Positions 5,507 through 48,550 of a stretch of 64,000 nucleotides of DNA are shown piece after piece. A program made the position numbers and the translations under genes. Location of the stretch: contig CP073217.1 in NCBI GenBank assembly GCA_020342235.1, positions 248,001-312,000 of the forward strand. The letters run 5' to 3'. Position 1 is the stretch's first letter; the number at the start of each line of letters is the position of its first letter. Below the pieces are notes generated by a model. That model did no database searches. It saw only the letters and a program-made list of their open reading frames with translations, and had not been told where the DNA came from. The stretch is from Saccharomycopsis phalli (lineage: Eukaryota > Ascomycota > Saccharomycetes > Ascoideales > Saccharomycopsidaceae).

Positions 5507-5562
5507 CTGTTATTATTTGTAATATTTTAGGTCCATTAGGGTAATGGGTCTAATAATTACCT

Positions 5563-5856
5563 TATAACGAATTTAGTCCGGGCTAATCGTTATAACACTT
5601 ATAATCCTTATCCAACAGCCCAAGGCCTGCTGACTACAATGTATAAGTTGTAAGATGAGCTCAGAATACCAGTCCCCGTTCATGTTGTTCTCTTTTCTAT
5701 TTATCCTTCTCTTAAGTAGGGTAAACCTAACCTTATCGTCCAAGTGAGATCATCATGTCTCCTTAACCATTCATCCATTACCAGATCATTAACACGTGCC
5801 ATGTTCACATGACCATGTTGTCACGTGAAAGGTCCACCTGACCTTATATCGTTACA
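5563..5856 (-). repeat. Gypsy-A solo LTR nested in gypsy-B LTR
   Basis: Matches the LTRs of the gypsy-A element at 27027-31573 in reverse orientation. A 5-bp TSD, TACCT, flanks it (5558-5562 and 5857-5861), and the split gypsy-B LTR reads on across it. Its near edge is 56 bp from the tRNA-Asp 5' end. Confidence 0.93.
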
Positions 5857-5888
5857 TACCTCCTTATATTATTATTGTTATAATCCGG

Positions 5889-6220
5889 TGACGTCATACG
5901 AAGTATGATACAAGAATATGGTCACGTGATAAGCGGAATAAGCAATATGGGAAGCATAGGCGCCGATCTATGATGATACGCAATATGGCTCCGCCACCTC
6001 ACAGTGGACATGTATATGTGAGAGATGCAGGTATAAAAGATATTAGTTTAGACCTGAAGATCTTTAGTTCAAAATAAATATAGTATACGTTTGTAAGATA
6101 GCCCGGCACTATCAATAATACCTCGTATCTTACTGAGCTCACTACTACTATTACTTATTATTTATTTATTACTACTAGTGCAAGGTCCCCATCAGAGAAG
6201 AGACAACACTAAGTACGTCA
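5889..6220 (+). repeat. Copia-D solo LTR nested in gypsy-B LTR
   Basis: This 332-bp LTR reads TGACGTCATACG to AGTACGTCA and has the TATA-like GGTATAAAAGAT. It matches the LTRs of the whole copia-D element at 57149-63030. No target-site duplication is visible, so this junction is not a simple insertion. Confidence 0.88.
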
Positions 6221-6403
6221 ATAAGGCCTGGCGTCATGTATTTATAGTTCTTTCTAGTGGCATCCTTCTCCTCTTTCTCGAGGCTTTGCATGTTGGCTTT
6301 TAGATACAACCTGCAGGTTGGCCGCTTACCCTAGGGTAACACGTAGAGTGATTCACGTGCCAGTCATATACCAAAAGGGAGGTACCGGGAATTGCCCGTT
6401 ACA

Positions 6404-6699
6404 TATTAATGTTAAAATTCTCGAACTGGGCTATTGAGTTGCCAGATTTAATTGTAACGAGATAAGGTCAGGACGCCCTTAGTCACGTGCTCATATGGTT
6501 ATGAAGGTATGCATCGCGATATCTGGAGGGTATTGGATGAAGTAATTAGAAGTGGCGCAGCAACTGCTTACGGGAGGTAGCGTTAGTCTATCTACCTTAG
6601 GTAGCATCCGGCTACCCTACTTAGGAAAGAGTATAAATATGAAGGAAATACAATATTTGTTGAAAGTGCTGAAAGTGTTGAAGGAGTTAATGCATGGTG
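6404..6699 (+). repeat. Old LTR fragments between nested elements
   Basis: From 6453 a gypsy-like LTR start (TGTAACGAGATAAGGTCAGG) runs to a TATA-like GTATAAATATG near 6631. From about 6658 (TGTTGAAAGTG) a second family begins, LTR-E here, which copia-A copy A2 has split. No coding potential is seen. Exact borders are uncertain. Confidence 0.55.
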
Positions 6700-9668
6700 T
6701 GTTGTAATTTGGAAAGTCTTTCTTTAGCTGACATCTTTGATAAACTGTTTGTATTAACTTATTTATCTTATTGGTAAACTACTTACTTATTGTGGGCACA
6801 TTGCCTCTTATTTATAGTCCTCTTATTAGCTACGGCGTGTCGTAATGCCGCTTAACTAATGCCATTTAGCTACGGCGTATTGTAATGCCGTTTAGCTAAT
6901 GCCGTTTAACCAATGCCGATAGCTAATGCCGTCTCGGATTTTAATCATCACAACAAGAGGTCAGGTCAATTTCAGCCTCTGAAGCGTCAGCGATGATTAG
7001 TTCATTTGACTTGGATGAACCAGAAACGACTAATTCATTTCCAATTTCGCGAGCAGCAGTGCGAATTAAGGCAGTATTATGATCCCTTAAGTAACCAAGC
7101 TCAAATCCAGTATCTTCAGCCAACTCAGACGCATTACCGTATGCATCTGATTTAGATACTGTATCATTATCGTCCACTATCAACGAGGTGTCCAGAGGGT
7201 CAAGCTCGGATTCAACTGTCAATTCATCTCTAGTCATAGAAATAGCTGGCTGAGAATTCATAGGTAGAGAATGAATCCCTCCAATCTTTGGATTGCCAAC
7301 CCCAGAAATTTGAGGAGGATTGATTGTGCTAGTCAGCGCCAGAGACACAGTTGGATAAAAGAATTTATCCTCCTCAAAAGTTGCTTGAGCAGCGCAAATA
7401 ACCTTATTTGTTCTGGGGTCATAGAGTCGATATGCTTTTCGTTGCAATTCATAGCCAATCATGACACAAGGAGAGGCTTTAGCATCGAGCTTTCCTTGAC
7501 GGAGGGCCTTAGGAATAATAGCATAAGCAACACATCCAAATTCTCGGAGAAATTTGTAGTTGAAAGAGCGACCATACCATCGTTTGTATGGGACATCAAA
7601 ATCAATAGAGCGTGATGGCGTACAATTAGCCAAAAAAACAGCAGTATTGATTGCTTCAGGCCAAAGTTGAGCTGGAACATTGGTATGAAGCATAAGAGCG
7701 CGGGCTTTATCTTGAAGTGTACGGTTCATTCGTTCGGCAACGCCATTTTGATACGAATGATGGGGAACCGTGGTTTCGTGAGAGATGCCACGCTTGGTGA
7801 GGAAGTTAGTCAATTCCTCACTCACAAACTCACCTCCATTATCTGTACGGAGAGTACCAACGCAGTAAGTCAATCCTTTACTGCGGAACATTGTTTCAGA
7901 GGTATTAATAAAATTAATGATACCTTGAGTGCATCCAGATTTCTTATTGAGGCAAACAACAGTGGTCCATTTTGTATAGCCGTCAACAATAGTCAAGAAA
8001 TACCGAGATGCATCGTAGGATCCGTAGTTAAATGGCCCACAAAGATCCACATGGACTAACTCAAGTGGCTGAGAAGGATTGGTGGTCCGTTCTTTAGGAG
8101 CAGAGTCAACAGTTTTACCAGTAATACATCCGGTACAACTCAGTAAACTCTGACCAGCCTTCCAGAGTGGATGGATCTTGAAAAGCGAGGCCATAACAGA
8201 AGCGCTAGGGTGGCCAAGTCTTCTATGCCAGCGATCAATATCACGGCCAGAGGACACAGCCTTGTAAGCAATCTGCTTCGGAATCACAGTAGAAGGTTCA
8301 CATGAAACAGTGTAAAGGTTTGAAAGTGGATCTCGATGAGCAAACATTTTCTTGGTGGAGCGGATAGTGGCACCTTGATGATTGAAGAGAAACTCTAACT
8401 TATGATTAGAAGCTTTTCCAACCGAGATAAGGTTAGCAATACCGTTAGGAGTGTAACCAACATCATGTAGAATAAAAGGTCCAGCTGGAGTAGAAATCCG
8501 AACTGTACCTTTCCCAACAATTGCAAGGTTTCCAGCAACACCCAGAATAGAGCCATTCTCTGGAATCATGTCTTGAAAGAAACGAATGTCAGAGAAGAAA
8601 TGTCCACTGGCACCAGTATCAAGAAATGTTGGTATCAGTAACAGATGTCCAAGGAAGGAATAAGCCAACATACCTTGAGGATACTCTTCATCATATGGTT
8701 GTTGCTTTTCCTTCTTTTTACCTTTGCGACGAGGTTTGGACGTCTTCTTAGACAGAGAATCGTGACCCAAAAGTGCAAGACTGTTCAGACGAACATACTC
8801 ATGCGATCCAGTTATCTCATGCAAGACCTGATACAGAAGAGTATTAGTAGTAATCCCCTTGTGTTCAAGCTCTTTAATCACGCTTGAGATAACCGGATAT
8901 GGCACACCAAGTTGCATCATGTTATCCAAAGTCCATAATGCAATGATTGCCTCCTTAGTCAATTGCTGTCTAACCAACAAATTTTTGCGTTGAAGCATTG
9001 CCCTGATGTCAACAAACTCAGTGGGCCTAGTAGCTTCTTCCAGAATCCCAGCGCTAGTGAGAGCCACTGGGAGTGGAAGAGTACCATACTTCTCTTGAAG
9101 AAACAAAAATTGATTTCTAGCAGTCAGACGTGAGTGCGTGGAGCGAATAATTCCGCGAATCTCTTGGCTAATGCTTGCCTTGAGAATAATACCAAACACG
9201 CTATCCAATTGTTCAATAAAGAAAGCAGGAGAAATGTCCGAGGCATCGTTCAGTTCGATGCTCAGAGTTCCATTTTCGGCGTATTGAAGTAAGCCGACCC
9301 CGAAGCCAAAAAGAAAGTCCTCGAGTTCCTTCATCCAAACATGATAAGTCTCTGGACCAGTCAATGTTAATTCAGAGGGGAACTGCAGGACGCTTGCAGG
9401 ATGCATCATAACCTGTTGTAATTTGGAAAGTCTTTCTTTAGCTGACATCTTTGATAAACTGTTTGTATTAACTTATTTATCTTATTGGTAAACTACTTAC
9501 TTATTGTGGGCACATTGCCTCTTATTTATAGTCCTCTTATTAGCTACGGCGTGTCGTAATGCCGCTTAACTAATGCCATTTAGCTACGGCGTATTGTAAT
9601 GCCGTTTAACCAATGCCGATAGCTAATGCCGGTAGCTAATGCCGTCTCGAATTTTAATCATCACAACA
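6700..9668 (-). mobile_element. Copia-A copy A2, short internally reduced form
   Basis: A minus-strand copia-A element with LTRs at 6700-6955 and 9414-9668 and a clean 5-bp TSD, TGGTG (6695-6699 and 9669-9673). Its single open reading frame starts in the LTR (MSAKERLSKLQQ) and covers gag, protease (DTGASGH), the GAG-pre-integrase zinc region and integrase (HVDLCGP, TDNGGEF, NGVAERMN). Reverse transcriptase and RNase H are not seen, so it cannot be autonomous. It landed inside LTR-E. Confidence 0.93.
6941..9448 (-). CDS. Copia-A gag-protease-integrase reading frame of A2
   Basis: An 835-residue frame that stays open through gag, aspartic protease and integrase and ends a few residues into the 3' LTR. 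The zinc motif H-x3-H with downstream CxxC lies around residues 420-460, with integrase catalytic blocks after it. Because RT and RNase H are absent, the product would be Gag and integrase only. Whether it is expressed is unknown. The promoter would be the LTR TATA-like box about 100 bp upstream. Confidence 0.8.
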   Translation of the reverse strand: MSAKERLSKLQQVMMHPASVLQFPSELTLTGPETYHVWMKELEDFLFGFGVGLLQYAENGTLSIELNDASDISPAFFIEQLDSVFGIILKASISQEIRGIIRSTHSRLTARNQFLFLQEKYGTLPLPVALTSAGILEEATRPTEFVDIRAMLQRKNLLVRQQLTKEAIIALWTLDNMMQLGVPYPVISSVIKELEHKGITTNTLLYQVLHEITGSHEYVRLNSLALLGHDSLSKKTSKPRRKGKKKEKQQPYDEEYPQGMLAYSFLGHLLLIPTFLDTGASGHFFSDIRFFQDMIPENGSILGVAGNLAIVGKGTVRISTPAGPFILHDVGYTPNGIANLISVGKASNHKLEFLFNHQGATIRSTKKMFAHRDPLSNLYTVSCEPSTVIPKQIAYKAVSSGRDIDRWHRRLGHPSASVMASLFKIHPLWKAGQSLLSCTGCITGKTVDSAPKERTTNPSQPLELVHVDLCGPFNYGSYDASRYFLTIVDGYTKWTTVVCLNKKSGCTQGIINFINTSETMFRSKGLTYCVGTLRTDNGGEFVSEELTNFLTKRGISHETTVPHHSYQNGVAERMNRTLQDKARALMLHTNVPAQLWPEAINTAVFLANCTPSRSIDFDVPYKRWYGRSFNYKFLREFGCVAYAIIPKALRQGKLDAKASPCVMIGYELQRKAYRLYDPRTNKVICAAQATFEEDKFFYPTVSLALTSTINPPQISGVGNPKIGGIHSLPMNSQPAISMTRDELTVESELDPLDTSLIVDDNDTVSKSDAYGNASELAEDTGFELGYLRDHNTALIRTAAREIGNELVVSGSSKSNELIIADASEAEIDLTSCCDD

Positions 9669-10331
9669 TGGTGAAATACATCATGCATGATAAATAAGCT
9701 GGTATTGAGAAATAGCAATCCTTCAGTACCATGATATCATACTGTTTATGGTATATTAAGAGTATGAGGTCATAGTATTAGCAATCTAATAAAGTTATCA
9801 GGTCATACTAATAGTGAACTGATAATAATATGAGGTCATACTAATAATGATGTCATGAGATAAAGATAACTGAAGGCATCTCAGAAAGAATATAAATAGA
9901 ACAGGAAATAGTTAGTATAGTAACAAGAATAAGAATATCTACAATAGTAAGATATGGAAGCCATTGAGAGAAACGCTAGCTTACGACAATATTGAGGAGG
10001 ACGAAGGACTTGGAGATCAACTTACAACTTATATTCTGTAGTTAGCGTATCTTGTATTGCTAATTGGATTGTATAAGTGATATAACGAACCCATCGAACT
10101 AATTTCGTTATATTAATATAACAGAATTTATTCAACGCTTCTGTTATAACACTTATATCGAGTTAATCAATAAGATAATAAGAGTAACTACAAATATAAG
10201 TTGTAGATAGTTCTAAAGTGAACTTAAGATATCCCATTACTAGCAAATTAAACAGCTATTTATACTTTTCTTAAGAATGGATTTGTACTTGTGTAATATG
10301 TGGGACACTCCGAACACAATCACAACATTAT
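9669..10331 (+). repeat. LTR-E continuation and mixed LTR remnants
   Basis: Continues the LTR split by A2: several ATGAGGTCATA-type motifs (about 9760-9850), then a TATA-like AATATAAATAG near 9893. From about 10016 it holds gypsy-type LTR tail pieces (TTACAACTTATA, ATAAGTG, TTCGTTATA), some in reverse orientation. It ends at or near ATCACAACA (10327). No gene is seen. Confidence 0.55.
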
Positions 10332-10656
10332 TGTTGTAATTTGGAAAGTCTTTCTTTAGCTGACATCTTTGATAAACTGTTTGTATTAACTTATTTATCT
10401 TATTGGTAAACTACTTACTTATTGTGGGCACATTGCCTCTTATTTATAGTCCTCTTATAAGCTACGGCGTGTCGTAATGCCGCTTAACTAATGCCATTTA
10501 GCTACGGCGTATTGTAATGCCGTTTAGCTAATGCCATTTAGCTAATGCCGTTTAGCTAATGCCGTTTAACCAATGCCGATAGCTAATGCCGTTTAGCTAA
10601 TGCCGTTTAGCTAATGCCGATAGCTAATGCCGTCTCGGATTTTAATCATCACAACA
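10332..10656 (-). repeat. Copia-A LTR joining LTR-E to gypsy-C1
   Basis: The longest copia-A LTR here (325 bp), owing to extra copies of the U3 unit GGCATTAGCTAAA. The flanking bases ATTAT and AGGAC do not match, so the two sides were not one site before this LTR arrived. To the right lies the middle of gypsy-C1 pol, to the left mixed LTR remnants. Confidence 0.88.
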
Positions 10657-12625
10657 AGGACGTCTTCAGAAATTATTTCTCCGTCAATTTTTGACTGGAA
10701 TTCCTTTATTTGATCTTTTTGATCATAAATTTTTAATGAAGATTGGTCCAGATTATCCTGTGACCGCACCTCATGTTCTATAATCATTAATTCATTTATT
10801 TCAAATATTTGTTCTTTTTCAAAAGGACCTTTCGTATTAGACGGAACTTGGGAATTATTCAACCCCAAATCATCATTTGTAGTCACAGAAATTGCGTAAA
10901 TTTCATTATTACGACTTTTTAACAAACGATTAGCTTCCTTTAGTCCCATAATTTTTATTTTTCGATTGTGTTGGGCTTGATGCTGCATTAAGGTTAGAAA
11001 CCATTCCCAATTTTGTAAAATGGTAGGTAATCCAATAATACAATCATGTGCACATTTATTAGATAGAAGAAAAGAAAATTGTATTTCTTTTTCCTCCATT
11101 CCTTTTTCACTGATGAAAGTTGCTTTCTACCAGTCATTAATAAATTCAATTACTCGACCAGCGGCATCCGTAATTTTTCTTGGTGTCGCGGTTTTTATTA
11201 TTTGAAAGTCAAGATTTTGGGCGATTCTTTTATTCATACAAGAGACAGAGGCACCAGTATCAACCAATGCTTTAATAATCTTACCCTTATATTTTAAATC
11301 TATAAGTATAAAAGTTAAACTTATAGGCTCACCCTTATCACTTTTCGGGTCTCTCGATGGGCCTTCAACATCGATAGACCCTAAGCATTTTTTGTCTCCT
11401 CAATCATCTTAGTGTCTTCTGGGTCTGTTATATCATCCGTTTCAAAGACATTAAGATTGGAAAGCGGATTAGAATTTTTCTTAGCAAACCAGCATTCTTC
11501 AATTGAGTGCCCTTCTTTTTTACAGTGCCGACAATGTATACCCAGCTGAAATTTTGTTTTCTTTCTTTGCTTAGAAACCAAATTTCCGGCATCTTTCTTA
11601 TTATCATCTCTTTCACCTGAAGTTGAGGATCTCTTTAATTCTTTTCTTTTTGTCCGCCGTGAATAAGCCGCTTGTTGATTTTCATGATATTGTGAGGCCA
11701 ATTCCATGGCTTGCTTTAATGTTGTAGGATTAGCTTCTTGCACTTTAACTTCTATCAGAGGATGTAAAGCCATAATATACTGATCTCTGGCAACCTCTTC
11801 CATGTTTTCAGGGGTTGTTTTAAATTGAGAGTAATATGCCTTATACTTCACATTGAAATTTTCAATAGATTGGGCCAAGGATTCAATTTTCATAAATTTA
11901 AATTCTTTGCGTTCCTTCCACACATATCTCTTACCTAAGAAATGGTTTTCAAAATCTCTCCAGAATTGTGCGTAAGTTACTGAGTCACCATCGTCATTCC
12001 AGTATTCGTTAAACCATAGTTCAGCGTTACCAGTCATTCTGAATCCTGCTGAAGTAATTTTTCTTTTATCAGTCCAAGAGGGAACGACTGCTCTCTTACA
12101 CGCAGCTTGAAATAGTCTGGCTTCCATGGGAGTACCATTACCAGCAAAATGATTAATCAGCTGATAATAAGCAGTACTGCCATCATCATCGTTCGCCTTA
12201 TCTTCTGTTGAATTCTGGACTCGAGGTGGCACCTTGTAAAAAAAAAATTTCTTTTGTTCTAAACCTTGTGGCGCTACCAAATGTAACGAGAAATGTTCAA
12301 GTTCTCTCGTTAAAACACTTATTATGCTGAATAGTCGAATTAATCCTTAGTAAAACTACACAGAATAAGTTGCAGGATGTTCTAAGAAGTTTTGTAAGAT
12401 TTAGTTTTATCCTTTTTACGCCTTTTATTAAGCGCTATATATAGTAATATTTGCCACTACTGTGGAGGCTTATATCCTTTCACCCAAATATCTTTAACTG
12501 GATTCATGTCTTTAGATGTAATAATATCATTCGATGTATTCATATGTTTAGATGGGATTCATAACTTTTGACTTGGCACGTGACAATTCGCACGTGCTCA
12601 ATGATCCTGACCAAGTCCCGTTACA
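10657..12625 (-). mobile_element. Gypsy-C copy C1 (Ty3/gypsy), partial
   Basis: Minus-strand Ty3/gypsy element. The 5' LTR is 12282-12625. An initiator-Met primer site (complement TGGTAGCGCC, at 12270-12279) sits 2 bp inside it. Gag is 11381-12280 (zinc knuckle C-x2-C-x4-H-x4-C in its last third). The start of pol follows with the protease region (residues near CIIGLPTILQNWEW). The remainder of pol is not present, as the element stops at a copia-A LTR. It is close kin of C2 but its LTR is longer (344 against 289 bp), so it is a separate subfamily. It originally ended 14 bp upstream of tRNA-Asp. Confidence 0.88.
12282..12625 (-). repeat. Gypsy-C1 5' LTR
   Basis: Ends TGTAACGAG and CCCGTTACA on the plus strand. 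Two CACGTG boxes lie near 12580-12600, in U3. It is separated by one base from the TSD of gypsy-C2. Confidence 0.88.
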
Positions 12626-12631: not shown

Positions 12632-12920
12632 TGTAACGAGAAATAATCAGAACCTCTCGTTAACACACTTATTATGCTGAATAGTCAAGTAATTCTTATG
12701 TTAACTACACAGTATAAGTTGTAAGAAGTATTAAGATTCCCTTAATACCAGGTTAATCCTCCTTACCCCTTTATTGTGCTCTTATATATAGTACTTATTG
12801 TCACTCCTCTCATGGCTTCTCCCCATTCCCCCTGCATATATCTTTGGCTGGATCCCTGACCTTATGGCTGTACACGTGATCATTTCACGTGCACAGTCGT
12901 TCTGACCAATTCTCGTTACA
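12632..12920 (-). repeat. Gypsy-C2 3' LTR
   Basis: 289 bp, matching 17877-18165 base for base by eye. It adjoins a polypurine tract on the minus strand. Confidence 0.93.
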
Positions 12921-12962
12921 TCTTCCCCTTCTTAATTTTTGGGCGACTCGACCAAAACTGAA

Positions 12963-14405
12963 CTATTCTCCTTCAGCTGCCTGTAATTCTGCTGCTAGCT
13001 TTTGACGATGTTCTCTTGGTAAATTGTATATCCATTCTGTTGGGACGGTGACCGGGTCTTGATGGTTTTGATAGAGAACCACAGTAAGAACTTCTCCTGC
13101 TTCTAGTATTGCAATGATATGATCACGTTCTCTGTCAAATTTGCTACCTTCTTCGGCCACTTCCGCTGGATAATATTTTCTCATGTTCTTAACATTTACC
13201 TTAATCATTTTTCTTGGAGATATTCGGACTCGGTATGCATTAAATTCAGATGTTTTTGTTACTGGAAAAGGTCCATGAAATATTGGAACAAATTTTGCAC
13301 GGGCAGTATTCACGTCCTTAAGGATACTTTTATGGATGAGTACAAGTTCGCCAACTTCATAGTTAACTTGTTTGCGATTTTTATTTAATTGAATACTTTG
13401 AGCAGCTTGTGACTCTGCCATTTTGATTTGTATGTCCGTGATAATTTTTGATTGTTGTTCAATAAATTCTATTGCATGAAATTTTGAGGAATTATTAAAG
13501 AACGCAAATGCGTTAATATTTGTCATTACCGTCCAGTATCGGGGGTGATATCCCACATCAGCAAAGAATGGGGTAGTTTTAATACTTTCTTGGAACTGGC
13601 TATTATACGCAAATTGTAGCGAAGGTAAAGCTTTGCTCCAATCTCCCATTTGGGTTAAATTATGGACCGACATTAATTTTATTAATTCGCGATTCATTCT
13701 TTCTGTTTGTCCATCTGATTGTGGATGAGCTACCGTTGATAAACGGCGTTTTATTCCCATTAAATTCATAAGGGTTGACCAGAACTCGCTGGTAAATAAT
13801 TTATCTTGATCTGAGACAATCGATGTCGGGAGGCCATGTTCACATACTATTCTTTGACAGAAAAGCTCTGCCACATCTTCTGCTGTGTCTGTTTTGTGAT
13901 TTGCGATGAATGTCGCTCTTTTTGTGAGTCGGTCGACTATGACCATTATTGAATTATATTTTTCAATTCCCACGATTGGAATACCTGTAATAAAATCCAT
14001 AGATAACTCTGACCAACGCGCTTGTGGTACTTCTAACGGTTGTGCAATGCCCGCAGTATGCTGATTAGGAGCTTTAACTCTCGCACATATATTACACCGA
14101 TTCACAAAGCGTCTTACTGTATGCCACATTTTTGGCCAATAAAATCGGAGTTCTTGAATTTGGTAAACCATTTTTGTTATTCCCATATGAAGACTTCCAA
14201 GAGAGGTATGAATTATATTAATTATTCTAAATTTTAGTGGACCGTCGGGAATACACAACCTAGGTACACCATTTGTTGAAGTTTGAAAGACTAATAATTT
14301 AAAACCTTCATAGTCCGCCAATTTAAATTTTTTAATAAGACTAAGTTTTTCTTTCGGACATTCAATATCTCCATCAAGTATTTGGTATATTTCTTTGAAA
14401 TATTG
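12963..14405 (-). CDS. Gypsy-C2 pol, integrase part
   Basis: Encodes the integrase end of the Ty3/gypsy polyprotein. It shows an H-H-C-C zinc module (CNICARVKAP), the first catalytic Asp block MDFITGIP, the second block near SDQDKLF, the Glu-bearing block QSDGQTERMNREL, and a C-terminal GPF/Y module (GPFPVTKTSEFNAYRVRI). The upstream side is bounded by the nested copia-A LTR. The domain inserts element cDNA into the chromosome and would be the part that meets the tRNA-gene machinery. Confidence 0.9.
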   Translation of the reverse strand, partial: QYFKEIYQILDGDIECPKEKLSLIKKFKLADYEGFKLLVFQTSTNGVPRLCIPDGPLKFRIINIIHTSLGSLHMGITKMVYQIQELRFYWPKMWHTVRRFVNRCNICARVKAPNQHTAGIAQPLEVPQARWSELSMDFITGIPIVGIEKYNSIMVIVDRLTKRATFIANHKTDTAEDVAELFCQRIVCEHGLPTSIVSDQDKLFTSEFWSTLMNLMGIKRRLSTVAHPQSDGQTERMNRELIKLMSVHNLTQMGDWSKALPSLQFAYNSQFQESIKTTPFFADVGYHPRYWTVMTNINAFAFFNNSSKFHAIEFIEQQSKIITDIQIKMAESQAAQSIQLNKNRKQVNYEVGELVLIHKSILKDVNTARAKFVPIFHGPFPVTKTSEFNAYRVRISPRKMIKVNVKNMRKYYPAEVAEEGSKFDRERDHIIAILEAGEVLTVVLYQNHQDPVTVPTEWIYNLPREHRQKLAAELQAAEGE

Positions 14406-14716
14406 TGTTGTGATGATTAAAATTCGAGACGGCATTAGCTACCGGCATTGGTTAAACGGCATTAGCTAAACGGCATTAGCTATCGGCATTGGTTAAACGG
14501 CATTAGCTAAACAGCATTAGCTAAACGGCATTACAATACGCCGTAGCTAAATGGCATTAGTTAAGCGGCATTACGACACGCCGTAGCTTATAAGAGGACT
14601 ATAAATAAGAGGCAATGTGCCCACAATAAGTAAGTAGTTTACCTATAAGATAAATAAGTTAATACAAACAGTTTATCAAAGATGTCAGCTAAAGAAAGAC
14701 TTTCCAAATTACAACA
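14406..14716 (+). repeat. Copia-A solo LTR inside gypsy-C2 pol
   Basis: A complete 311-bp copia-A LTR with a 5-bp TSD, TATTG (14401-14405 and 14717-14721). It lies in the opposite orientation to its host element and carries the LTR-encoded gag start codon. Confidence 0.95.
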
Positions 14717-16896
14717 TATTGGTCCCTTAAATATTCGGTTTTGGTAATTTTTGGTAGTCTAGCAACTTCGGTTTCTTTTAGGCTCTCGGGAACAATTCTT
14801 TCTTCCTCTGGCCCTTGATCCAAACCATCTGTTTGTATATCCTCATCATCTTCTAATTCATTTATATTCGCATCATTTTTTATCAGTATATTTCTACTGA
14901 GTGCGTCAGCTGCCTTATTCATATGGCCAGGCTTATACCTTATGACAAAATTAAAATCTGCCAAGAAATGTTGCCATCTTAAAAGACGCTGATTATTTTC
15001 ATTTTTTGTTGAATTTAGATAGGTGAGTGAATGATGATCTGTAAAAGTTTCAAACGGCATCGTTAAATAATGTCGCCATTGTTTGAATGCTTCGATGATC
15101 GCAAGTAATTCTTTCTCGCGTACATCATAATTTAATTGAGCACCTTGCAATGTTTTGGACATATAGGCTATTACGCCTACAATCGTCCCATTGTGATCAT
15201 ATTGTTCAAGGACTGCCCCAATATGTTTTTGAGATGCATCGGATGTTACCCTGCATGTAAGATCTGGATCGAAAATTCTCAACACTGGAGCATGTGTTAA
15301 TTTATATTTCAATCTTTTTATAGCTCGCTCCAATTCCATGGAATCCACGGGTTTATTATTATAATAGTCATGTAACGGTTTTGCAATTTGTGCAAAATTA
15401 GGAATAAACCGTCGATAATAGCTAGCAAGTCCAGCAAATGATCTGGCTTGAGTTTGATTTTCTATGACAAAGTTTTGTATTGGTTCAATTCTCTCTTGGT
15501 TCACCGATATTCCCTCTGCGGATATGGTATATCCAAGAAATATTAATTGAGTGAGATAAAATTCTGATTTCTTCCGGCTGACCACCAAATGAGCTTTGCT
15601 TAAGGTTTCCATTACCTGATTAATATGCTTTTCATGAGTTTGTATGTCTGGAGAAAATATAAGAATATCATCCAAGTATACCACACAAAATTTCTCAAGA
15701 GGTACAAGTAATTCATTCATAACTGCTTGGAACGTTGCCGGCGCATTACATAGGCCAAACGGTATAACATTCCAACTATATTGTCCAAATGGTGTAACCA
15801 TAGCCGTTTTGTACCGATCATTTTTCTCAACCGATATTTGATGATATCCACTAACTAAATCTAGTTTAGAGAATATTTTTGATCCCAGGATGTGGTCTAA
15901 TAGATCTTCTATCCTTGGTATCGGAAATCTAGATTTCACCGTTATTTCATTTAAACAACGGTAATCAACACATAGACGTTTACTACCGTCTTTTTTTATG
16001 ACAAATAAAACCGGCGCTCCATACGGCGACGACGTAGGAAAAATTTGTTTTTTATTTAGAAGATCGGTTATTTGTCGTTTTAATTCTGCCCGATTTTCGG
16101 GATTTAACCTATACGGTTGTTTAAATGTTGGTTTACTTCCGGGAACAATATGGATGTGATGGGTTACTTTTTGAAATTTTTCCCCATCCATTTGTATGTC
16201 TTCACGGATTATATTTTTGTATTTTTGTAATACTTGGCATCGTTTTTCTTTAATGACACCATCAGTAATTAGCTTTCCGTCAATTTTTGACTGTAATACC
16301 TCATGTTGATCTTTTTGATCATGAGTTTTTAATGAAGATTTGTCCGATTTTTCTCGTGGCAAAACCTCATATTCCATAATTTTTAATTCATTTATTTCGA
16401 ATTTTGTTTCTTTCTTGGGAGAAGTCTGAGGAGAATTTAATCCTAAATCATCATTCGTAGTCACAGTAATTGCGTAAATTTCATTACTATGACTTTTTAA
16501 CAAACGATTAGCTTCTTTTAGTCCCATAATTTTTATTTGTTGCTTTTGTAGAGCTTGATAGTGCATTATGGTTAGAAACCATTCCCAATTTTGTAAAATG
16601 GTAGGTAATCCAATAATACAATCATGCGCACATTTGTCGGAAAGAAGAAAAGAAAATTTTATTTCTTTTTCCTCCAATCCTTTTTCACTGATGAAAGTTG
16701 CTTCCGACCAGTCATTTATAAGTTCAATTATTCTACCAGCGGCATCCGTAAGTTTTCTTGGAGTCGCGGTTTTATTTATTTGAAAGTCAAGGTTTAGGGC
16801 TATGCTTTTATTAATACAAGAGACAGAAGCACCAGTATCAACCAATGCTTTAATAGTGCTATCCTTATATTTTAAATCTATAAGAATAAAAGTCAA
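14717..16896 (-). CDS. Gypsy-C2 pol, protease-RT-RNase H part
   Basis: From its upstream end it reads aspartic protease (ALVDTGASVSC), a linker, reverse transcriptase with the FGLCNAPATFQ and VVYLDDILIF motifs, and RNase H (TSDASQKHIGAVLEQ, YDVREKELLAI, FTDHHSL). All are typical of the Metaviridae order PR-RT-RH-INT. It lies in a different frame from gag. The plus-strand end is set by a nested solo LTR. Confidence 0.92.
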
Positions 16897-16958
16897 ACTT
16901 AAAGGTTCACCCTTATTGCTTTTCGGGTCTCTCGATGGGCCTTCAACATCGACAGACC

Positions 16959-17825
16959 CTAGGCATTTTTTTTTGTCTTCTCTGCTATCTTAATATCTTC
17001 GGAATCTGTAACATCATCCGTTTCAAATATATTTAAATTAGACAGCGGAGTGGTATTTTTCTTGGCAAACCAACATTCCTCAATTGGATGCCCTTCTTTT
17101 TTACAGTACAAGCAATGTATGCCCGACCGAAATTTTGTTTTCTTTCTTTGTTTATTTTTAGTTTGAGTAGAGTTGTTAGGCATATTTTTATTGTTTTCTG
17201 ACTCTCCTGGACTTGAAAACTGTCTTTTCTTTCCTTTGTTTCTTACCCGTTGCAAATAAACCGCTTGTTGATCTTCATAATATTCAGCAGCAAGTTCCAT
17301 TGCTTCATTTATTGTTTTTGGTTTGGCTTCTCTTACCTTAGCCTCTAACCACGGATAAAGGGACATAATGTACTTATCTCTCTCATACTCTTCAATGGTT
17401 TCAGGTGTAATTTTAAATTGATTAAGAAGTGACTCATAATGAGTATTATATTCTCCAATCAGGCGGAACATAGATTCCATTTTTAGATATTTAAATTCCT
17501 TGCTTTCATTCCAAAGATATCTCTTGCCTAAAAATCGATTTTCGAAATCTTTCCAGAATTTTTCGTAAGTCACTATTTTTCCATATTTATTCCAATAACC
17601 AGTAAACCATTCTTCAGCTAACCCACTCATCCTGAAGCCCACTGACGTAATTTTTCGACCATCAGCCCAAGTTGGTTGGACCGCTCTTTGACATGCTGCT
17701 TGAAATAGTCTGGCTTCCTTAGGAGTCCCAGTGCCTGTGAAATATTTAATCAGTTGATAATAATCAGGAATTCCGTCAGTTTCGTTCAAATTATTTTCGG
17801 ATGAGTTGTGTATCCGAGGTGGCAT
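16959..17825 (-). CDS. Gypsy-C2 Gag
   Basis: A 288-residue retrotransposon Gag protein. It has a helical capsid-like body (WF/YWNKYG region), a basic linker, and one zinc knuckle, CLYCKKEGHPIEEC, near residues 236-249. The start is the ATG 39 bp inside the primer site. The last codons run through a poly-A stretch just ahead of the protease frame, a plausible place for the programmed shift that this family uses. Confidence 0.9.
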   Translation of the reverse strand: MPPRIHNSSENNLNETDGIPDYYQLIKYFTGTGTPKEARLFQAACQRAVQPTWADGRKITSVGFRMSGLAEEWFTGYWNKYGKIVTYEKFWKDFENRFLGKRYLWNESKEFKYLKMESMFRLIGEYNTHYESLLNQFKITPETIEEYERDKYIMSLYPWLEAKVREAKPKTINEAMELAAEYYEDQQAVYLQRVRNKGKKRQFSSPGESENNKNMPNNSTQTKNKQRKKTKFRSGIHCLYCKKEGHPIEECWFAKKNTTPLSNLNIFETDDVTDSEDIKIAEKTKKNA

Positions 17826-17876
17826 TTTGTAAAAAAAAAATATTTCGTTTATTCTGAACCTTGTGGCGCTACCAAA

Positions 17877-18165
17877 TGTAACGAGAAATAATCAGAACCT
17901 CTCGTTAACACACTTATTATGCTGAATAGTCAAGTAATTCTTATGTTAACTACACAGTATAAGTTGTAAGAAGTATTAAGATTCCCTTAATACCAGGTTA
18001 ATCCTCCTTACCCCTTTATTGTGCTCTTATATATAGTACTTATTGTCACTCCTCTCATGGCTTCTCCCCATTCCCCCTGCATATATCTTTGGCTGGATCC
18101 CTGACCTTATGGCTGTACACGTGATCATTTCACGTGCACAGTCGTTCTGACCAATTCTCGTTACA
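17877..18165 (-). repeat. Gypsy-C2 5' LTR
   Basis: 289 bp, with CACGTG at 18118-18123 and 18131-18136 in U3 and a TATA-like TATATA near 18030. It ends 13 bp before tRNA-Asp. Confidence 0.93.
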
Positions 18166-18178: not shown

Positions 18179-18250
18179 TCCGTGATAGTTTAGTGGCTAG
18201 AATTTCCGCTTGTCGCGTGGAGGACCGGGGTTCAATTCCCCGTCGCGGAG
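18179..18250 (+). tRNA. tRNA-Asp(GUC)
   Basis: 72 nt, identical to the gene at 5435-5506. Acceptor TCCGTGA pairs with TCGCGGA, the anticodon loop is TTGTCGC and the B box is GGTTCAATTCC. No immediate T-run follows; the first run of five Ts is about 30 bp downstream. Two gypsy-C elements have inserted one after the other just upstream. Confidence 0.97.
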
Positions 18251-31573: not shown

Positions 31574-31622
31574 ACTGATCATTTCTCCTAACCAGGGAAG
31601 TGTACCTTCCTGGTTACAAATC

Positions 31623-31926: not shown

Positions 31927-31959
31927 GTTGGTAGCGCCACAAGGTTATTCAAGCTTAAG

Positions 31960-32583: not shown

Positions 32584-32852
32584 TGTTGTGATGATTAAAA
32601 TTCGAGACGGCATTAGCTACCGGCATTAGCTATCGGCATTGGTTAAACGGCATTAGCTAAACGGCATTACAATACGCCGTAGCTAAATGGCATTAGTTAA
32701 GCGGCATTACGACACGCCGTAGCTAATAAGAGGACTATAAATAAGAGGCAATGTGCCCACAATAAGTAAGTAGTTTACCAATAAGATAAATAAGTTAATA
32801 CAAACAGTTTATCAAAGATGTCAGCTAAAGAAAGACTTTCCAAATTACAACA
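32584..32852 (+). repeat. Copia-A LTR (A6, 5')
   Basis: 269 bp, same as 37822-38090 by eye. U3 has about eight GGCATTA-type units, then ACTATAAATAAG, then the gag start codon. Confidence 0.93.
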
Positions 32853-35800: not shown

Positions 35801-37821
35801 CGTTTTGTGGTGATATACCTCCGACTACTTTTGATAATCTTCCAAAGACACCTCAAAATGAGATTATCTATAAGTACTACGGAAAGCTGAAGATTTCACG
35901 TACTAAAATTCCGGATTCTGATCTCAGATATCTGGAAGGTGTATCTACTTCAGCTGGTCCTCCTCTCCTCTGCCTCGCCGCCTCCGCCTCCACCTTCTGC
36001 TTTGCCGCAAAAGCGTCTTATCCGTCACAAAGGCTCCCAACCTAAGCCACTTTTTCCTGGTCCGCTTAGTTCTGACGAACATGATCCTACTACCCACCGT
36101 TCGTCTTCAGGGAGGGATAAGAAGCCTCGTGTCTCTGATATTGTCACAAATGGTTCTTCTAATGATGGTGTCCTGACATCTGTTAAGACGCCACTCTCAG
36201 ATGACACAGATGAATCCGATATGAATACGAATGGTGTGAATTATCCTGCTACTTGTTTTATGGCTGCTAAGCATTCTCTTGAGAATGTACCTATGACATT
36301 TGATCAAGCTGTTACTTCTGATGATGCTTACTTATGGAAAGATGCTATTCAAAAGGAAATGGAAGCCCACTATGAGAATCAGACTTTTCTGTTAGTTCCA
36401 CCTAAGCAAGGTCGTCGACCTATCACTTGCCGTTGGGTTTTTACAATTAAGAGTGATGGTCAACACAAGGCACGACTTGTGGCTAGAGGTTTTACTCAGA
36501 TTAAAGGACTTGATTATGTGGAGACTTTTGCACCTGTCATTAGGTATGCTTCTATTCGAATCATGTTGTCCATTGCTGCAAGATATAGACTTACTATTCA
36601 TCAGATGGATGTGAAAACGGCTTTTCTCAATGGTGATTTAAGGGAAGACCTTTACATGATTCAACCTGAAGGTTTTGTGGTCAAAGGAAAAGAAGATCAT
36701 GTTCTTAAGCTTAATAAGTCGATTTATGGTTTGAAGCAAGCTCCAATGGTTTGGAATGACAAAATCAATGAAGTGTTACATGTGATTGGTTTTAAGCAAA
36801 ACTCTGCGGAGTATTGTTTGTATTCTAAGAAAAATGGGAATTTGTTTATTATGGTTGCACTTTATGTCGACGATCTTCTCATTGCTGGAAATAATCAGAC
36901 TGAAATTGATAAGGTTAAAGCTCAATTGATGCTGCACTTTAAGATGAAAGACCTAGGAGTTGCTAGCAAGTTTCTTGGAATGAACATTAGTCAAGATAAG
37001 GCCTCAATACTGCTTTCTCTTCATGATTATGTTCACCTGATGCTAAAGGAGTATCAGATGGTAGATTGCAATCCTATCTACACACCAGCGGATCCTAATC
37101 AGGATCTAACTATAACTGATGACTCAAAGGACTGGGATGCCACAATGTATCGATCCTTGGTTGGCAAATTACTTTTTGCTGTTAATACAGTCCGGTTTGA
37201 TATTGCTTATATTGTTGGTGTGTTATCAAGATATTTACAATCTCCAAAGGAAAAGCATTGGGTTGCTGCGAAGCGTGTTCTTAGATATTTGAAGGCAACA
37301 GAGGATATGAAAATTGTTTATTCCAGAAAGGATTATGGGAATTATCTTTTGGGATATTGTGATGCTGACTGGGCTACTGATAAGACGGAAAGAAAGTCAA
37401 CTACTGGTTTCATGTTTAGGTATAGCGGTGGTGCTATTACTTGGAGATCTAGAAAACAGTCGACTATTGCTTTGTCGACAGCAGAAGCCGAATACATGGC
37501 ATTAACTGACGGTATTAAAGATGCTCTATGGTTACAGCAGGTGTTTGCAGAACTTGGTATCCCCTTGGCAAAATTGATAGTTCATGATGACAATGTGAGC
37601 TGCGTTAATATTGCTAAAAACCCAGTGTCACATGATCGAACTAAACATATTGATATCAAGCATCACTTTATCAGGCATCATGTGAAAAATGGCAACATTG
37701 AACTACGACACCTAACTACTGACAAGATGCTAGCTGATATGCTTACCAAGGGATTATCAAGAGAGCAATTTCAAAAACTTCGGATGCTGAGTGGTATGAG
37801 GAAATTTTAATTATGGGAGGG

Positions 37822-38090
37822 TGTTGTGATGATTAAAATTCGAGACGGCATTAGCTACCGGCATTAGCTATCGGCATTGGTTAAACGGCATTAGCTAAAC
37901 GGCATTACAATACGCCGTAGCTAAATGGCATTAGTTAAGCGGCATTACGACACGCCGTAGCTAATAAGAGGACTATAAATAAGAGGCAATGTGCCCACAA
38001 TAAGTAAGTAGTTTACCAATAAGATAAATAAGTTAATACAAACAGTTTATCAAAGATGTCAGCTAAAGAAAGACTTTCCAAATTACAACA
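37822..38090 (+). repeat. Copia-A LTR (A6, 3')
   Basis: 269 bp, preceded by the purine tract ATTATGGGAGGG. Confidence 0.93.
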
Positions 38091-40310
38091 AATGTCAGTT
38101 TCCTTGGCTACCGCGTTTCGGCCAAAGGAATCCACGTGGATGATGAAAAGATCGATGCTGTACGTCGCTTCATCGTTGAGACCCCAGAGCAAACTCGCTC
38201 GTTTGTCGGTCTTGCTAGCTACTACCGACGATTTATTCGCGATTTTGCGAGTATTGTTAGACCCCTACATGCATATTACAATAAGAAATTACCATGGTCG
38301 GAAGAACAAGAAAAGGCGGTTGTGACTTTGAAAGCAGCACTAACTACCGCTCCGACATTGATCGTGTTTGATCCCTTATTGACATGCCGAGTTACGGCGG
38401 ACGCGTCCAATTATACTACAGGAGCCGTCCTTGAACAATTAACTGACGAAGGAACAACAATAGGCGTAGTTGCTTATATGTCTAAACAACTTCAAGACGC
38501 ACAACTTCGTTACCCCGTGCGAGAAAAAGAACTACTCGCTATCGTCCTAGCTCTCAGACAATGGAGACACTATTTGACCAAACCTTTTGAAGTCTTTACG
38601 GATCATCACTCTTTAAAATACCTCAACTCCTCCAAAAGTGAAGACAATCCACGTTTAATTCGTTGGCTCCACTTCCTTGCCGACTTTAATTTTACCATCA
38701 ACTACAAATCAGGCCATCTTAACGGAGCCGCAGACGCGCTTAGCCGCTGTGCGCTCAGCGCCATTTTTACCGCCAATACAAATACCGGCACTTCATTACA
38801 ATATACTGAAATCACCACACACCCAGGTTTACAACCCATTGAGAAGGAGGAATACCTCTCAGACCCCAATTTTAAATTAATGTATCAAGTCCTATTTGAA
38901 AACGCCCCGTGTCCTAAGGAGCACCAGGCCTTATTGAAGTTCTACCTGATTCAGAAAGTTAACAACAACAAACTCTTGGTTTTCAGAACGTCCAAATTTG
39001 ACACCACCAAAGTCTGTTTGCCACGTGGACGATGGCAGACAAAGATCATACACTTATTTCATAACGCCGCCGGCAGCATTCACATGGGCCCGCACAAAAT
39101 GACTCGTCAAATCCAAGCCCTGGGATTTTACTGGCCAGGAATGGAGCGAACTATTCGAAAACATCTACTTCGCTGTGAGGCCTGCCGGGCTACTAAACCA
39201 TCTAATCAACCACCTAATGGGCTCGCCCAACCACTTGAAGTTCCTATGGCCCGTTGGTCGGACCTTTCGTTGGACTTTATCTCAGGTTTTCCGGAAGATG
39301 AGGGTTTTAACAGCATATTGGTCGTGGTCGACCGTCTTTCAAAGAGGGCGAAATTCATTCCGTGTAAGAAAACATGTACCGCCGAACAATTTGCGGAACT
39401 TTTCTTCAAACATATTATTTGCGAACATGGCGTTCCGAGAACGTTAGTATCGGATAGAGGGACATTGTTTGTGAACAACTTCTGGAAAACAGTCACGGAA
39501 CGAATGGGTATTGATCACCGCTTATCCACCTCTGCTCACCCACAAACAGACGGACAAACAGAGAGAATGAACAGAAACTTAGTACAAGCCCTACGTATAT
39601 GTCGCTACACCAAAGGCAAGCTGTGGTGTAGAATGTTACCAGTGGTCCAATTCGCGTACAATAGCCAATATCAAGAATCCATCAAAACAACACCATTCTT
39701 CGCGGATCTCGGGTACCATCCAAGATATTGGGAAATTGTGGTGGGATATGATATTACGCGATTAATCAATGACCCTCCCATTGTCGCCGGAAATCATTTT
39801 GTGGAAATACAAGATCAGACGCTCCAAATACTCAAACTGAACATGGCAGAAGCCCAAATCCGTCAGAGTTATCAATATAACAAACATCGCTCTGACATCA
39901 CGTTTAAAAATGGAGAGGTTGCCTTGTTAAACAGAAAAGCCATTTCTACCGGTTCCGAAAAAGAAAAGAAGTTCGAATCCCCGTTCGAGGGTCCCTTCCG
40001 CCTAACTGCTACAGAAAATCCTAATAGTTTTATAGTCCAGGTTGGACCCCGGAAGAGAATAACGGTGAATGTGAAGAACTTACGGAAATACTACCCAACG
40101 GAACTTGTCGCGACCGGAGGATGGCATGAACAAAACTTAGAACTGATTGTCTTAATTATTGAAATCAACAACGACACGGCGGTGGTACTTTACAGAGATA
40201 AACCAACACCTGTTACCATCCCCGCGCGCTGGATTGAAAGGATACCAGACGAACTAAAAGAACGACTCATGCAGGACCTCGAAAAACTAGATTCCGCCCC
40301 GTCTTGGTAG
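38091..40310 (+). CDS. Gypsy-B pol, RT end through integrase
   Basis: Encodes the last part of RT (FLGYRVSAKGIHVDD, RSFVGLASYYRRFI), RNase H (TADASNYTTGAVLEQ, YPVREKELLAI, FTDHHSLKYL), an H-H-C-C integrase zinc module (CEACRATKP), catalytic blocks LSLDFISGFP, VSDRGTLFVNNF and QTDGQTERMN, and a GPF/Y module (FEGPFRLTATENPNSFIVQV). It is open throughout and ends about 30 bp before the 3' LTR. Confidence 0.88.
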   Translation, partial: NVSFLGYRVSAKGIHVDDEKIDAVRRFIVETPEQTRSFVGLASYYRRFIRDFASIVRPLHAYYNKKLPWSEEQEKAVVTLKAALTTAPTLIVFDPLLTCRVTADASNYTTGAVLEQLTDEGTTIGVVAYMSKQLQDAQLRYPVREKELLAIVLALRQWRHYLTKPFEVFTDHHSLKYLNSSKSEDNPRLIRWLHFLADFNFTINYKSGHLNGAADALSRCALSAIFTANTNTGTSLQYTEITTHPGLQPIEKEEYLSDPNFKLMYQVLFENAPCPKEHQALLKFYLIQKVNNNKLLVFRTSKFDTTKVCLPRGRWQTKIIHLFHNAAGSIHMGPHKMTRQIQALGFYWPGMERTIRKHLLRCEACRATKPSNQPPNGLAQPLEVPMARWSDLSLDFISGFPEDEGFNSILVVVDRLSKRAKFIPCKKTCTAEQFAELFFKHIICEHGVPRTLVSDRGTLFVNNFWKTVTERMGIDHRLSTSAHPQTDGQTERMNRNLVQALRICRYTKGKLWCRMLPVVQFAYNSQYQESIKTTPFFADLGYHPRYWEIVVGYDITRLINDPPIVAGNHFVEIQDQTLQILKLNMAEAQIRQSYQYNKHRSDITFKNGEVALLNRKAISTGSEKEKKFESPFEGPFRLTATENPNSFIVQVGPRKRITVNVKNLRKYYPTELVATGGWHEQNLELIVLIIEINNDTAVVLYRDKPTPVTIPARWIERIPDELKERLMQDLEKLDSAPSW

Positions 40311-40343
40311 GTCAAGGGACGACCTACGCTTGAGGGGGGAAAC

Positions 40344-40647
40344 TGTAACGGGCAATTCCCGGTACCTCCCTTTTGGTATATGACTGGCACGTGAATCACT
40401 CTACGTGTTACCCTAGGGTAAGCGGCCAACCTGCAGGTTGTATCTAAAAGCCAACATGCAAAGCCTCGAGAAAGAGGAGAAGGATGCCACTAGAAAGAAC
40501 TATAAATACATGACGCCAGGCCTTATGGCCAACTAACCTTTTACCTACATCTTGTAAGCTTGTTTTCCTTGAAAACCGGATTATAACAATAATAATATAA
40601 GGAGGTAATTATTAGGCCCATTACCCTAACGGACCTAAAATATTACA
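40344..40647 (+). repeat. Gypsy-B 3' LTR
   Basis: 304 bp, preceded by the purine tract GAGGGGGGAAAC. Its end lies 13 bp from the tRNA-Val start. Confidence 0.93.
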
Positions 40648-40660: not shown

Positions 40661-40734
40661 GGTTTCATGGTCTAGTAGGTTATGGCATCTGCTTAACACG
40701 CAGAACGTCCCCAGTTCGATCCTGGGTGAAATCA
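40661..40734 (+). tRNA. tRNA-Val(AAC)
   Basis: A 74-nt cloverleaf, GGTTTCATGGTC to GGTGAAATCA. The anticodon loop is TTAACAC, the B box is AGTTCGATCC, and a TTTTT terminator begins directly after it. It is close to budding-yeast tRNA-Val. A gypsy-B element ends 13 bp upstream and an older gypsy-A element lies behind it. Confidence 0.97.
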
Positions 40735-41282: not shown

Positions 41283-41743
<461 letters not shown>

Positions 41744-46778: not shown

Positions 46779-46803
46779 AATAATAATAATAATAATAATA
46801 ATA
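46779..46803. repeat. TAA microsatellite (right part)
   Basis: Continuation of the TAA run on the far side of copia-H. It is much shorter than the left part (about 25 against 105 bp). Confidence 0.95.
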
Positions 46804-47508: not shown

Positions 47509-47837
47509 TGACGTCATACGAAGTATGATACAAGAAGATGGTCACGTGATAAGCGGAATAAGCAACATGGGAAGCATAGGCGCCGATCTATGATGATACG
47601 CAATATGACTCCGCCACCTCACAGTGGACACGTATATGTGAGAGATGCAGGTATAAAAGATATTAGTTTAGACCTGAAGATCTTTAGTTCAAAATAAATA
47701 TAGTATACGTTTGTAAGATAGCCCGGCACTATCAATAATACCTCGTATCTTACTGAGCTCGCTACTACTACTTATTATTTATTTATTACTATTAGTGCAA
47801 GGTCCCCATCAGACAAGAGACAACACTAAGTACGTCA
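47509..47837 (+). repeat. Copia-D solo LTR
   Basis: A 329-bp copia-D LTR with a 5-bp TSD, TAGGT (47504-47508 and 47838-47842), inserted into an older gypsy-like LTR remnant. Confidence 0.94.
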
Positions 47838-47895
47838 TAGGTTAGCTTGATACAAGTGCTATAACAGAAGCTATGAATATTTTCTGTTATAACAC

Positions 47896-48195
47896 TATAA
47901 CGAATTTAGTTCCGACTATTCGCTATAACACTTATAATACTTAATTAACGAGGGGTATCACGTTAACTACAGATATAAGTTGTAAGATGATCTCTCTCCA
48001 ATCAGAGTGCCCCTCCTTTAATATATTCCTCCATATTTATAGTCTTCCCCAGTAGGGTAGTTATAACTCAGCCTCTCACCTAGAGGCGGCTGCGCCACCG
48101 CCAACCATTCACCCATTACCTATCTTCAATGCACGTGCCATGCTCTTCTGATCCTCTCATCACGTGTAAGGTCCACCTGACCTTATATCGTTACA
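47896..48195 (-). repeat. Gypsy-A-like solo LTR (variant)
   Basis: A 300-bp LTR with the same ends as gypsy-A but a diverged middle. TSD AACAC (47891-47895 and 48196-48200). Before the neighbouring LTR arrived it lay 57 bp upstream of tRNA-Leu. Confidence 0.92.
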
Positions 48196-48208
48196 AACAC
48201 AAATTCTC

Positions 48209-48501
48209 TATAACGAATTTAGTCCGGGCTAATCGTTATAACACTTATAATCCTTACCCAACAGCCCAAGGCCCGCTGACTACAATGTATAAGTTGTAAG
48301 ATGAGCTCAGAATACCAGTGCCGTTCATGTTGTTCTCTTTTCTATTTATCATTCTCTTAAGTAGGGTAAACCTAACCTTATCGTCCAAGTGAGATCATCA
48401 TGTCTCCTTAACCATTCATCCATTACCAGATCATTAACACGTGCCATGTTCACATGACCACGTTGTCACGTGAAAGGTCCACCTGACCTTATATCGTTAC
48501 A
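48209..48501 (-). repeat. Gypsy-A solo LTR
   Basis: A 293-bp LTR nearly identical to those of 27027-31573. TSD TTCTC (48204-48208 and 48502-48506). Its end lies 49 bp upstream of tRNA-Leu. Confidence 0.94.
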
Positions 48502-48550
48502 TTCTCAATGCATACTAATGTATCCTACCCAAAAATTTGAATTTCAAATT

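Follow-up and report, generated by a model that had tools for sequence, protein, structure and literature searches.

Two insertion distances of gypsy-type LTR families upstream of tRNA genes in Saccharomycopsis phalli

We have found that gypsy-type retrotransposons of Saccharomycopsis phalli occupy two narrow positions upstream of tRNA genes and that the position depends on the family. The DNA in question (the window) is a stretch of 64,000 nucleotides, contig C6:248001-312000 of assembly GCA_020342235.1 (14,148,124 bases in 8 contigs), in which 5 tRNA genes are found together with densely stacked gypsy and copia elements. Ten families of long terminal repeats (LTRs) were named: A, A2, A3 and Av, jointly the A-class, are distal, while B, B2, C, C2, D and E make up the proximal class. 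We consider it likely that these ten families use two registers set from one landmark, TFIIIB, with the two sites as near mirror images and with the difference residing in the C-terminal region of the integrase, where a short tail is a candidate.

Two insertion distances sorted by family

LTR ends were set from sequence. All ten families start with TGTAAC; the LTR end is GTTATA in the A-class and TTACA in the remaining families. Gypsy-type coding sequence is joined to A, A2, A3, B, B2, C and C2, and to D by adjacency; Av and E are known here from LTRs alone. The LTRs of A, B, C, Av and X (X and K being copia LTRs) were searched genome-wide, and 45 of the 47 copia X matches entered the analysis. 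We took 60 loci (L numbers below), most of them around those matches, and added 20 short tRNA-gene stretches picked for the absence of a nearby LTR match and eight tRNA-Asp loci, two of which were inside the window and were dropped. Because families A2, B2, D, E and A3 only came to light within these loci, places near A, B, C and X are over-represented in their counts. ARAGORN found 98 tRNA genes in the locus set including the window; the genome search for tRNA genes scored 63 of 806 candidates and its coverage is partial.

The gap is the number of bases separating the LTR edge from the first base of the mature tRNA, and the collapsed gap is the gap minus each complete intervening LTR element and 5 bp per element. 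Before annotation we discarded matches shorter than 22 bp and those with an overlap above 30% with a better match; the histograms take only rows whose tRNA-side edge is an LTR terminus. Rows of the same family, anticodon, 11-nt flank and orientation were merged into one non-redundant event; LTRs between two divergent tRNA genes enter the proximal count once per tRNA.

Among rows with an LTR terminus facing the tRNA gene and a collapsed gap of −50 to 400 bp, 38 of 41 A-class rows are at 48–60 bp upstream and 71 of 74 proximal-class rows at 8–18 bp; no A-class edge falls at 8–20 bp and no proximal-class edge at 45–62 bp. Merging leaves 35 A-class events at 48–60 bp (median 56, mean 56.2, standard deviation 1.9; A 17, A2 9, A3 8, Av 1) and 66 proximal events at 8–18 bp (median 13, mean 13.4, standard deviation 1.5; B 13, B2 15, C 11, C2 9, D 11, E 7). 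Edges measured without any subtraction give the same picture, with 17 of 19 A-class rows at 48–59 bp and 46 of 48 proximal-class rows at 11–18 bp. Fisher tests of family class against distance window give P = 3e-30 for unselected rows (38/0 versus 0/71) and P = 1e-15 for direct rows only (17/0 versus 0/46), both treating rows as independent, which segmental duplication permits only in part. Each class makes one narrow peak in the −50 to 400 range; a broad window of the Ty1 type (to ∼1 kb) is absent there, as is, for the A-class, an 80-bp series.

Counted per element, the expected range takes in 38 of the 57 A-class copies or fragments; 6 have no tRNA usable for measurement in the sequence taken and 13 are other. 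For the proximal class the numbers are 63 of 97, 18 and 16. The ‘other’ copies are fragments missing the relevant terminus, or copies behind unrecognised DNA. In a coordinate-only check at unfetched places, which 31 of 34 A3 and 32 of 46 D matches entered (short or weak ones being dropped), A3 edges were found at 55, 57 and 58 bp and D edges at 13 and 14 bp, while a D copy at 460 bp behind a B2 LTR comes to 13 once collapsed by hand. Similarly, an A copy at L022, directly before an A3 element with both LTRs, comes to 58 when collapsed by hand.

At least 18 of 80 tRNA genes (64 from the genome search, 13 from the search that gave the tRNA-Asp loci and 3 more from the window) carry a proximal insertion, at least 12 a distal one and at least 5 both. 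By anticodon, 21 tRNA types were hit by the A-class and 15 by the proximal families. Most A-class insertions share the orientation of the tRNA (26 against 9 opposite, P = 0.006), whereas those of the proximal families are evenly divided (32/34). The copia LTRs served as controls: none of the 10 copia X rows in range is at 8–20 or at 45–62 bp, and the nine copia K rows are at 106–358 bp.

The initial annotation of the window had listed proximal gaps of 11, 13 and 13/14 bp and distal gaps of 56, 58, 49 and 57 bp. Re-measured by script from the LTR edge to the mature tRNA 5′ end, these are 11 and 13 (B), 13 (C) and 14 (C2) for the proximal copies and 56, 57 and 48 (A) and 56 (Av) for the distal ones, the latter at most 1 bp off; window copies missing from that annotation also fit (A2 55, A3 54, E stub 12). 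Its claim of two non-overlapping groups on the 5′ side extends beyond the window, as the counts above attest, and the check it had proposed, a comparison of LTR-edge distances, yields separate peaks across genome loci with medians 13 and 56, sorted by family.

Nested insertions and the tRNA gene as reference

We found 17 junctions, some of them non-independent, between an A-class copy and the B, B2, C, C2, D or E LTR that it interrupts. The terminal piece of the host LTR measures 40–46 bp in 12 of the junctions and 26 bp in one; in four only the other half is present. With the proximal LTR end at 13 bp, a piece of ∼43 bp adds up to 56 bp; therefore the position of the inserting A-class element was measured from the tRNA and not from the sequence into which it went. 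The reverse order occurs too, with C, D, B or B2 LTRs at 12–15 bp between the tRNA and an A-class copy, and such outer A-class copies return to 56–60 bp after subtraction (L021, L030, L031, L047, L048 and L052). At L047 three proximal LTRs stand ahead of the A copy, which still collapses to 56.

A-class copies are thus found at the same distance in older LTRs of six families, mostly 40–46 bp from the host end, and in native flanks, so the distance is set from the tRNA gene and not by the local sequence. Both offsets are tied to the tRNA gene, independent of sequence and on its 5′ side. The stacked insertions suggest that the landmark re-forms at the same place after each insertion, whatever the upstream DNA.

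A 5-bp target duplication flanks 25 of 40 complete A-class LTRs and 25 of 56 complete proximal-class LTRs; several LTRs without one are single ends of full-length elements. The duplicated bases vary between sites. The B LTR at L026 is without a target duplication, which would fit recombination between the LTRs of two separate insertions.

Integrases, the inferred landmark and rival explanations

Gypsy elements are placed at or near RNA polymerase III (Pol III) start sites, with Skipper-2 downstream (PMC5911963 Table 1), and the proximal class is like the Ty3/gypsy elements described at or near the start: Ty3 of Saccharomyces cerevisiae, Tj1, Tyl3/Tyl6/Ylt1, beta/Tca8 and DGLT-A (PMC5911963, PMC5014426). 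The likeness to Ty3 noted in the initial annotation is upheld for the proximal class, whose 66 events at 8–18 bp coincide with the Ty3-type site, ∼10–20 bp upstream of the mature tRNA (the start being predicted). The A-class, with 35 events at 48–60 bp and none at 8–20, differs from that site. Neither Ty3 nor the gypsy relatives listed in PMC5911963 Table 1 are near 55 bp upstream, and no gypsy element near 55 bp appears in the excerpts of PMC5911963, PMC5006619, PMC4600332, PMC7175516, PMC5014426, PMC10085805 and PMC5391098.

A fixed site ∼50 bp upstream, like the A-class median of 56, is known for TRE5 of Dictyostelium and NLTR-B of Polysphondylium: TRE5-A lies 47 ± 3 bp upstream of tRNA genes (PMC5391098), NLTR-B is at 39–64 bp, and non-LTR TRE5 and NLTR-B together are at ∼40–64 bp (PMC5911963 Table 1). 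However, TRE5 and NLTR-B are non-LTR elements using target-primed reverse transcription, without integrase or LTRs, whereas the A-class has LTRs, integrase and 5-bp duplications and is not a TRE5-type non-LTR element with endonuclease and poly(A) tail. Ty1, Ty2 and Ty4 are LTR elements upstream of Pol III genes, as are the families here, but are of copia type, with a ∼1 kb window tied to nucleosomes (for Ty1 also to Pol III) and no single narrow register. The open-access literature searched assigns a fixed position near 50 bp upstream to no elements other than the non-LTR TRE5 and NLTR-B; an earlier description elsewhere is possible. With the A-class, a second precise position next to tRNA genes is added to those used by LTR retrotransposons.

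Open integrase frames were available for A3 (L022) and A2 (L034), together with the C and B proteins from the window and B2 from L033 and L001. Each of the five proteins scanned has an integrase H2C2 domain that passes the Pfam cut-off; rve and SH3, where found, fall below it. The C element has the order gag, protease–reverse transcriptase–RNase H (PR-RT-RH), integrase last, within an LTR pair, as expected of Ty3/gypsy; this order is seen only in part for the remaining families and not at all for Av and E. The A3 integrase matches the Ty3 Gag-Pol chain of PDB 7q5b (E-value 1.6e-58), and the other families with coding sequence were assigned as Ty3-related through similarity to A3. Integrase identity is 68.6% between A2 and A3, 71.9% between A2 and C and 68.6% between A3 and C, and 45–49% when A2, A3 or C is compared with B or B2. 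Judged by these identities, the distal A2 and A3 are integrase siblings of the proximal C. The approximately unbiased (AU) test retains all three topologies of A2/A3/C branching (P 0.34–0.59), so the register need not follow deep ancestry. Of the initial interpretation, the two fixed offsets therefore stand, borne out by the rows beyond the window, while the ‘two lineages’ give way to ten families in which A2 and A3 are siblings of C. Sibling integrases ∼70% identical but at different sites offer a ready-made test of the way in which distance along a promoter complex is gauged by an integrase, and their comparison narrows where the distance determinant can lie.

The pol of the A element is interrupted, and the window copy shares integrase-region stops with the copy spanning L050/L051. 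Many A LTR copies are nevertheless 97–100% alike, with clean duplications; A is thus probably mobilised in trans by the proteins of another family.

In the mechanism that we propose, the pre-integration complex would be positioned in both registers by something fixed to the tRNA gene. Like Ty3, families B, B2, C, C2, D and E would insert near the presumed start of Pol III transcription, at a gap of 13 bp and with duplicated bases at about −13 to −9. Insertion of A, A2, A3 and Av would be farther out, at a gap of 56 bp, with duplicated bases at about −56 to −52. The shared landmark would be TFIIIB, the A-class using the opposite side of the same complex. For Ty3, TFIIIB sits −15 to −32 from the start site and thereby brings the insertion close to the start, while the outer C-terminal domains of the integrase make contact with TBP and Brf1 (PMC8632968); the ORF1 protein of TRE5-A also interacts with TFIIIB subunits (PMC5911963, PMC5391098). 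Taking the predicted start ∼10 bp upstream of the mature tRNA together with the Ty3 geometry, TFIIIB would cover about −25 to −42. The duplication centres are at about −11 and −54, with a midpoint of −32.5 that would be close to the middle of this inferred position, making the two sites near mirror images. A distance of 43 bp between registers is about four helical turns, which would put both on the same helix face. This arithmetic makes it plausible that the distal class inserts at TFIIIB's upstream edge, one of the options raised in the initial annotation.

The register difference may reside in the C-terminal region of the integrase, where a tail of ∼10 residues is the candidate determinant. 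In A3 the tail reads FPDLGRDAQK and the protein ends EEESFPDLGRDAQK; in A2 it reads FPSVGRVAQS, ending AEEIFPSVGRVAQS. The C integrase stops just ahead of the tail (stop codon 12963–12965 within the integrase end at 12939–12965 of the window, − strand), with the relic FSFGRVAQK downstream; the stop is followed by a 17-nt element (12939–12955, counted by hand), which in A2 and A3 is translated as part of the tail. A degenerate D copy likewise stops ahead of IGRVAQD, and an open frame adjoining a D LTR aligns only as far as the start of the tail. B and B2 integrases are without it. Just inside the 3′ LTR, A, A2, A3, C and D share the conserved DNA TTGGTCGAGWCGCCCAA. A bolder reading, which we consider less likely than not, gives the Ty3-type intasome a stable register on either side of TFIIIB; closely related elements would switch between the two by gain or loss of ∼10 C-terminal integrase residues, through a stop just ahead of the conserved 17-nt element, which would double as tail-coding sequence.

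Placement of the distal class by the first upstream nucleosome, or by the edge of a nucleosome-free region, in place of TFIIIB, seems to us improbable, although it leads the alternatives. The distal site does lie upstream of the Pol III complex, and Ty1 offers a precedent in targeting nucleosomal DNA upstream of Pol III genes (PMC3545840), but a spread of 1.9 bp and a single A-class peak without the 80-bp series argue against it, and nucleosome edges would be expected to vary more across tRNA genes and after LTR insertion. A tether of the distal class to Pol III or TFIIIC, whose reach would set the distance, has slightly poorer prospects still, because the Pol III tether of Ty1 gives a window of ∼1 kb, not of a few bp (PMC5911963 Table 1). 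Selection after random insertion, by which copies between −18 and −48 would harm tRNA expression and get lost, agrees with the absence of terminus-facing rows of these families at collapsed gaps of 30–47 bp; it would hit all families alike and would not sort the A-type from the B/C/D/E-type, which makes it very improbable. Least credible of all is recognition by the integrases of DNA sequence at −13 and −56, given distal copies equally far within LTRs of six families and native flanks and target duplications that differ between sites, unless all hosts share a motif, for which no search was made. The nested copies and the sorting by family thus speak against both sequence recognition and selection alone.

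A number of observations weigh against the TFIIIB-based mechanism or the distances on which it draws. Collapsed distances rest on an assumption, the subtraction of whole elements with 5 bp each. Six terminus-facing rows fall outside the two ranges; four of them (288, 319, 332 and 355 bp) concern a second tRNA beyond an element already facing another tRNA at 13 or 56–58 bp, and two are real exceptions, a C2 fragment at L024 (gap 29) and a B copy at L018 (gap 119) abutting a C fragment. Beyond 400 bp there are 25 more rows, 12 of them A-class. A B copy at L029 has a clean 5-bp duplication with the nearest tRNA at least 1.4 kb away and no other Rfam match in the locus, and the A copy at window position 48501 has a gap of only 48. 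Copies not placeable in range come to 19 of 57 for the A-class and 34 of 97 for the others, and in the coordinate-only check the tRNA list, itself incomplete, has no entry within 1 kb for 12 of the 17 new A3 rows and for 12 of the 16 new D rows. As to the tail, the DNA that it overlaps is also conserved in C and D, where it is not translated, and in A, where it lies in another frame; conservation of the tail may thus have a cause other than the protein, and part of it is at the DNA level. With the same DNA kept untranslated, the tail as the cause of the register may be taken only as a lead. The tail comparison covers A2, A3, C, B, B2 and the degenerate D copy, the only one in which a D integrase end was read, and a structure model of the integrase C-terminal region (predicted local distance difference test score, pLDDT, 37) was too poor for use.

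Other Pol III genes were also considered as targets. An Rfam scan of 20 loci (12 without an ARAGORN tRNA) gave nine matches, all tRNA, with no genome-wide search for U6 or other Pol III genes; it missed one intron-bearing tRNA in L030 found by ARAGORN. A 5S search (47 of 409 candidates scored) found one gene, at contig C2:294603, and none of the listed A, B, C, Av, X, A3 or D matches lies within 40 kb of it. Upstream of 32 LTR-free tRNA genes a TATA-like motif showed no clear peak; the same genes are T-rich at −49 to −47 and A-rich at −22 to −16.

Elements of the window and other observations

The tRNA-Asp(gtc) gene at 5435–5506 (−) is the target of B (11), A (56), A2 (55) and A3 (54). Its B LTR (5518–6403, −) is split by A and X LTRs into pieces 5518–5562, 5857–5889 and 6221–6403; the A solo LTR within it (5563–5856, −) has a 5-bp target duplication. 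Farther out are an A2 LTR (6453–10112, +; pieces 6453–6657 and 9986–10112 with copia DNA between) and an A3 LTR piece (10117–10325, −; bases 79–287 of 287), for which the distances just given are collapsed gaps.

The second tRNA-Asp(gtc) gene (18179–18250, +) is the target of C (13) and C2 (14). The C element (12632–18165, −) has identical LTRs at 12632–12920 and 17877–18165 and the duplication cgcac on both sides; its open reading frames (ORFs) are gag-like (16959–17825), PR-RT-RH (14689–16896) and integrase (12963–14435). The C2 LTR (12282–12625, −) belongs to an outer element and its distance is a collapsed gap.

Upstream of tRNA-Val(aac) (40661–40734, +), a B element (31623–40647, +; LTRs 31623–31926 and 40344–40647) with a nested copia element ends 13 bp from the tRNA. 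Behind it come a 44-bp terminal stub of an E LTR (31575–31618, −; collapsed gap 12) and, inserted in this E LTR, the A element with both LTRs (27027–31573, +; duplication ACTGA, stops within pol, collapsed gap 57). At tRNA-Leu(taa) (48550–48635, +) an A solo LTR (48209–48501, −) with a 5-bp duplication has the lowest gap of the A-class, and an Av LTR (47896–48195, −), also with a 5-bp duplication, has a collapsed gap of 56.

In the loci examined, piles of LTRs and tRNA genes cluster at 765–827k and 2042–2143k on contig C1, 404–434k on C2, 1681–1731k on C3, 379–440k on C4, 1174–1224k on C5, 213–296k on C6 and 1121–1142k on C7, i.e. two clusters on C1, one main cluster on each of C2–C7 and none seen on C8. 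Fission yeast centromeres are tRNA-rich (PMC10085805), and by this likeness the window may be pericentromeric; the pattern is only suggestive because the loci were picked by LTR matches.

Among the copia elements, 3 of the 10 in-range copia X edges are at 109–111 bp upstream after collapse (window 47509, L049 2887 and L017 4753), too few to judge. The copia K LTR (window 10498–10658 and 14406–14588) contains short internal GGCATTAGCTAA-like repeats whose copy number is seemingly variable. A copia ORF at 57478–62658 contains an array of 24-bp units, ∼730 bp long (window 59145–59877), coding EQEKARLI-like repeats. Finally, at L056 (2302–2504) tRNA-Met and tRNA-Arg(tct) genes are 10 bp apart, perhaps as a single dicistronic unit.
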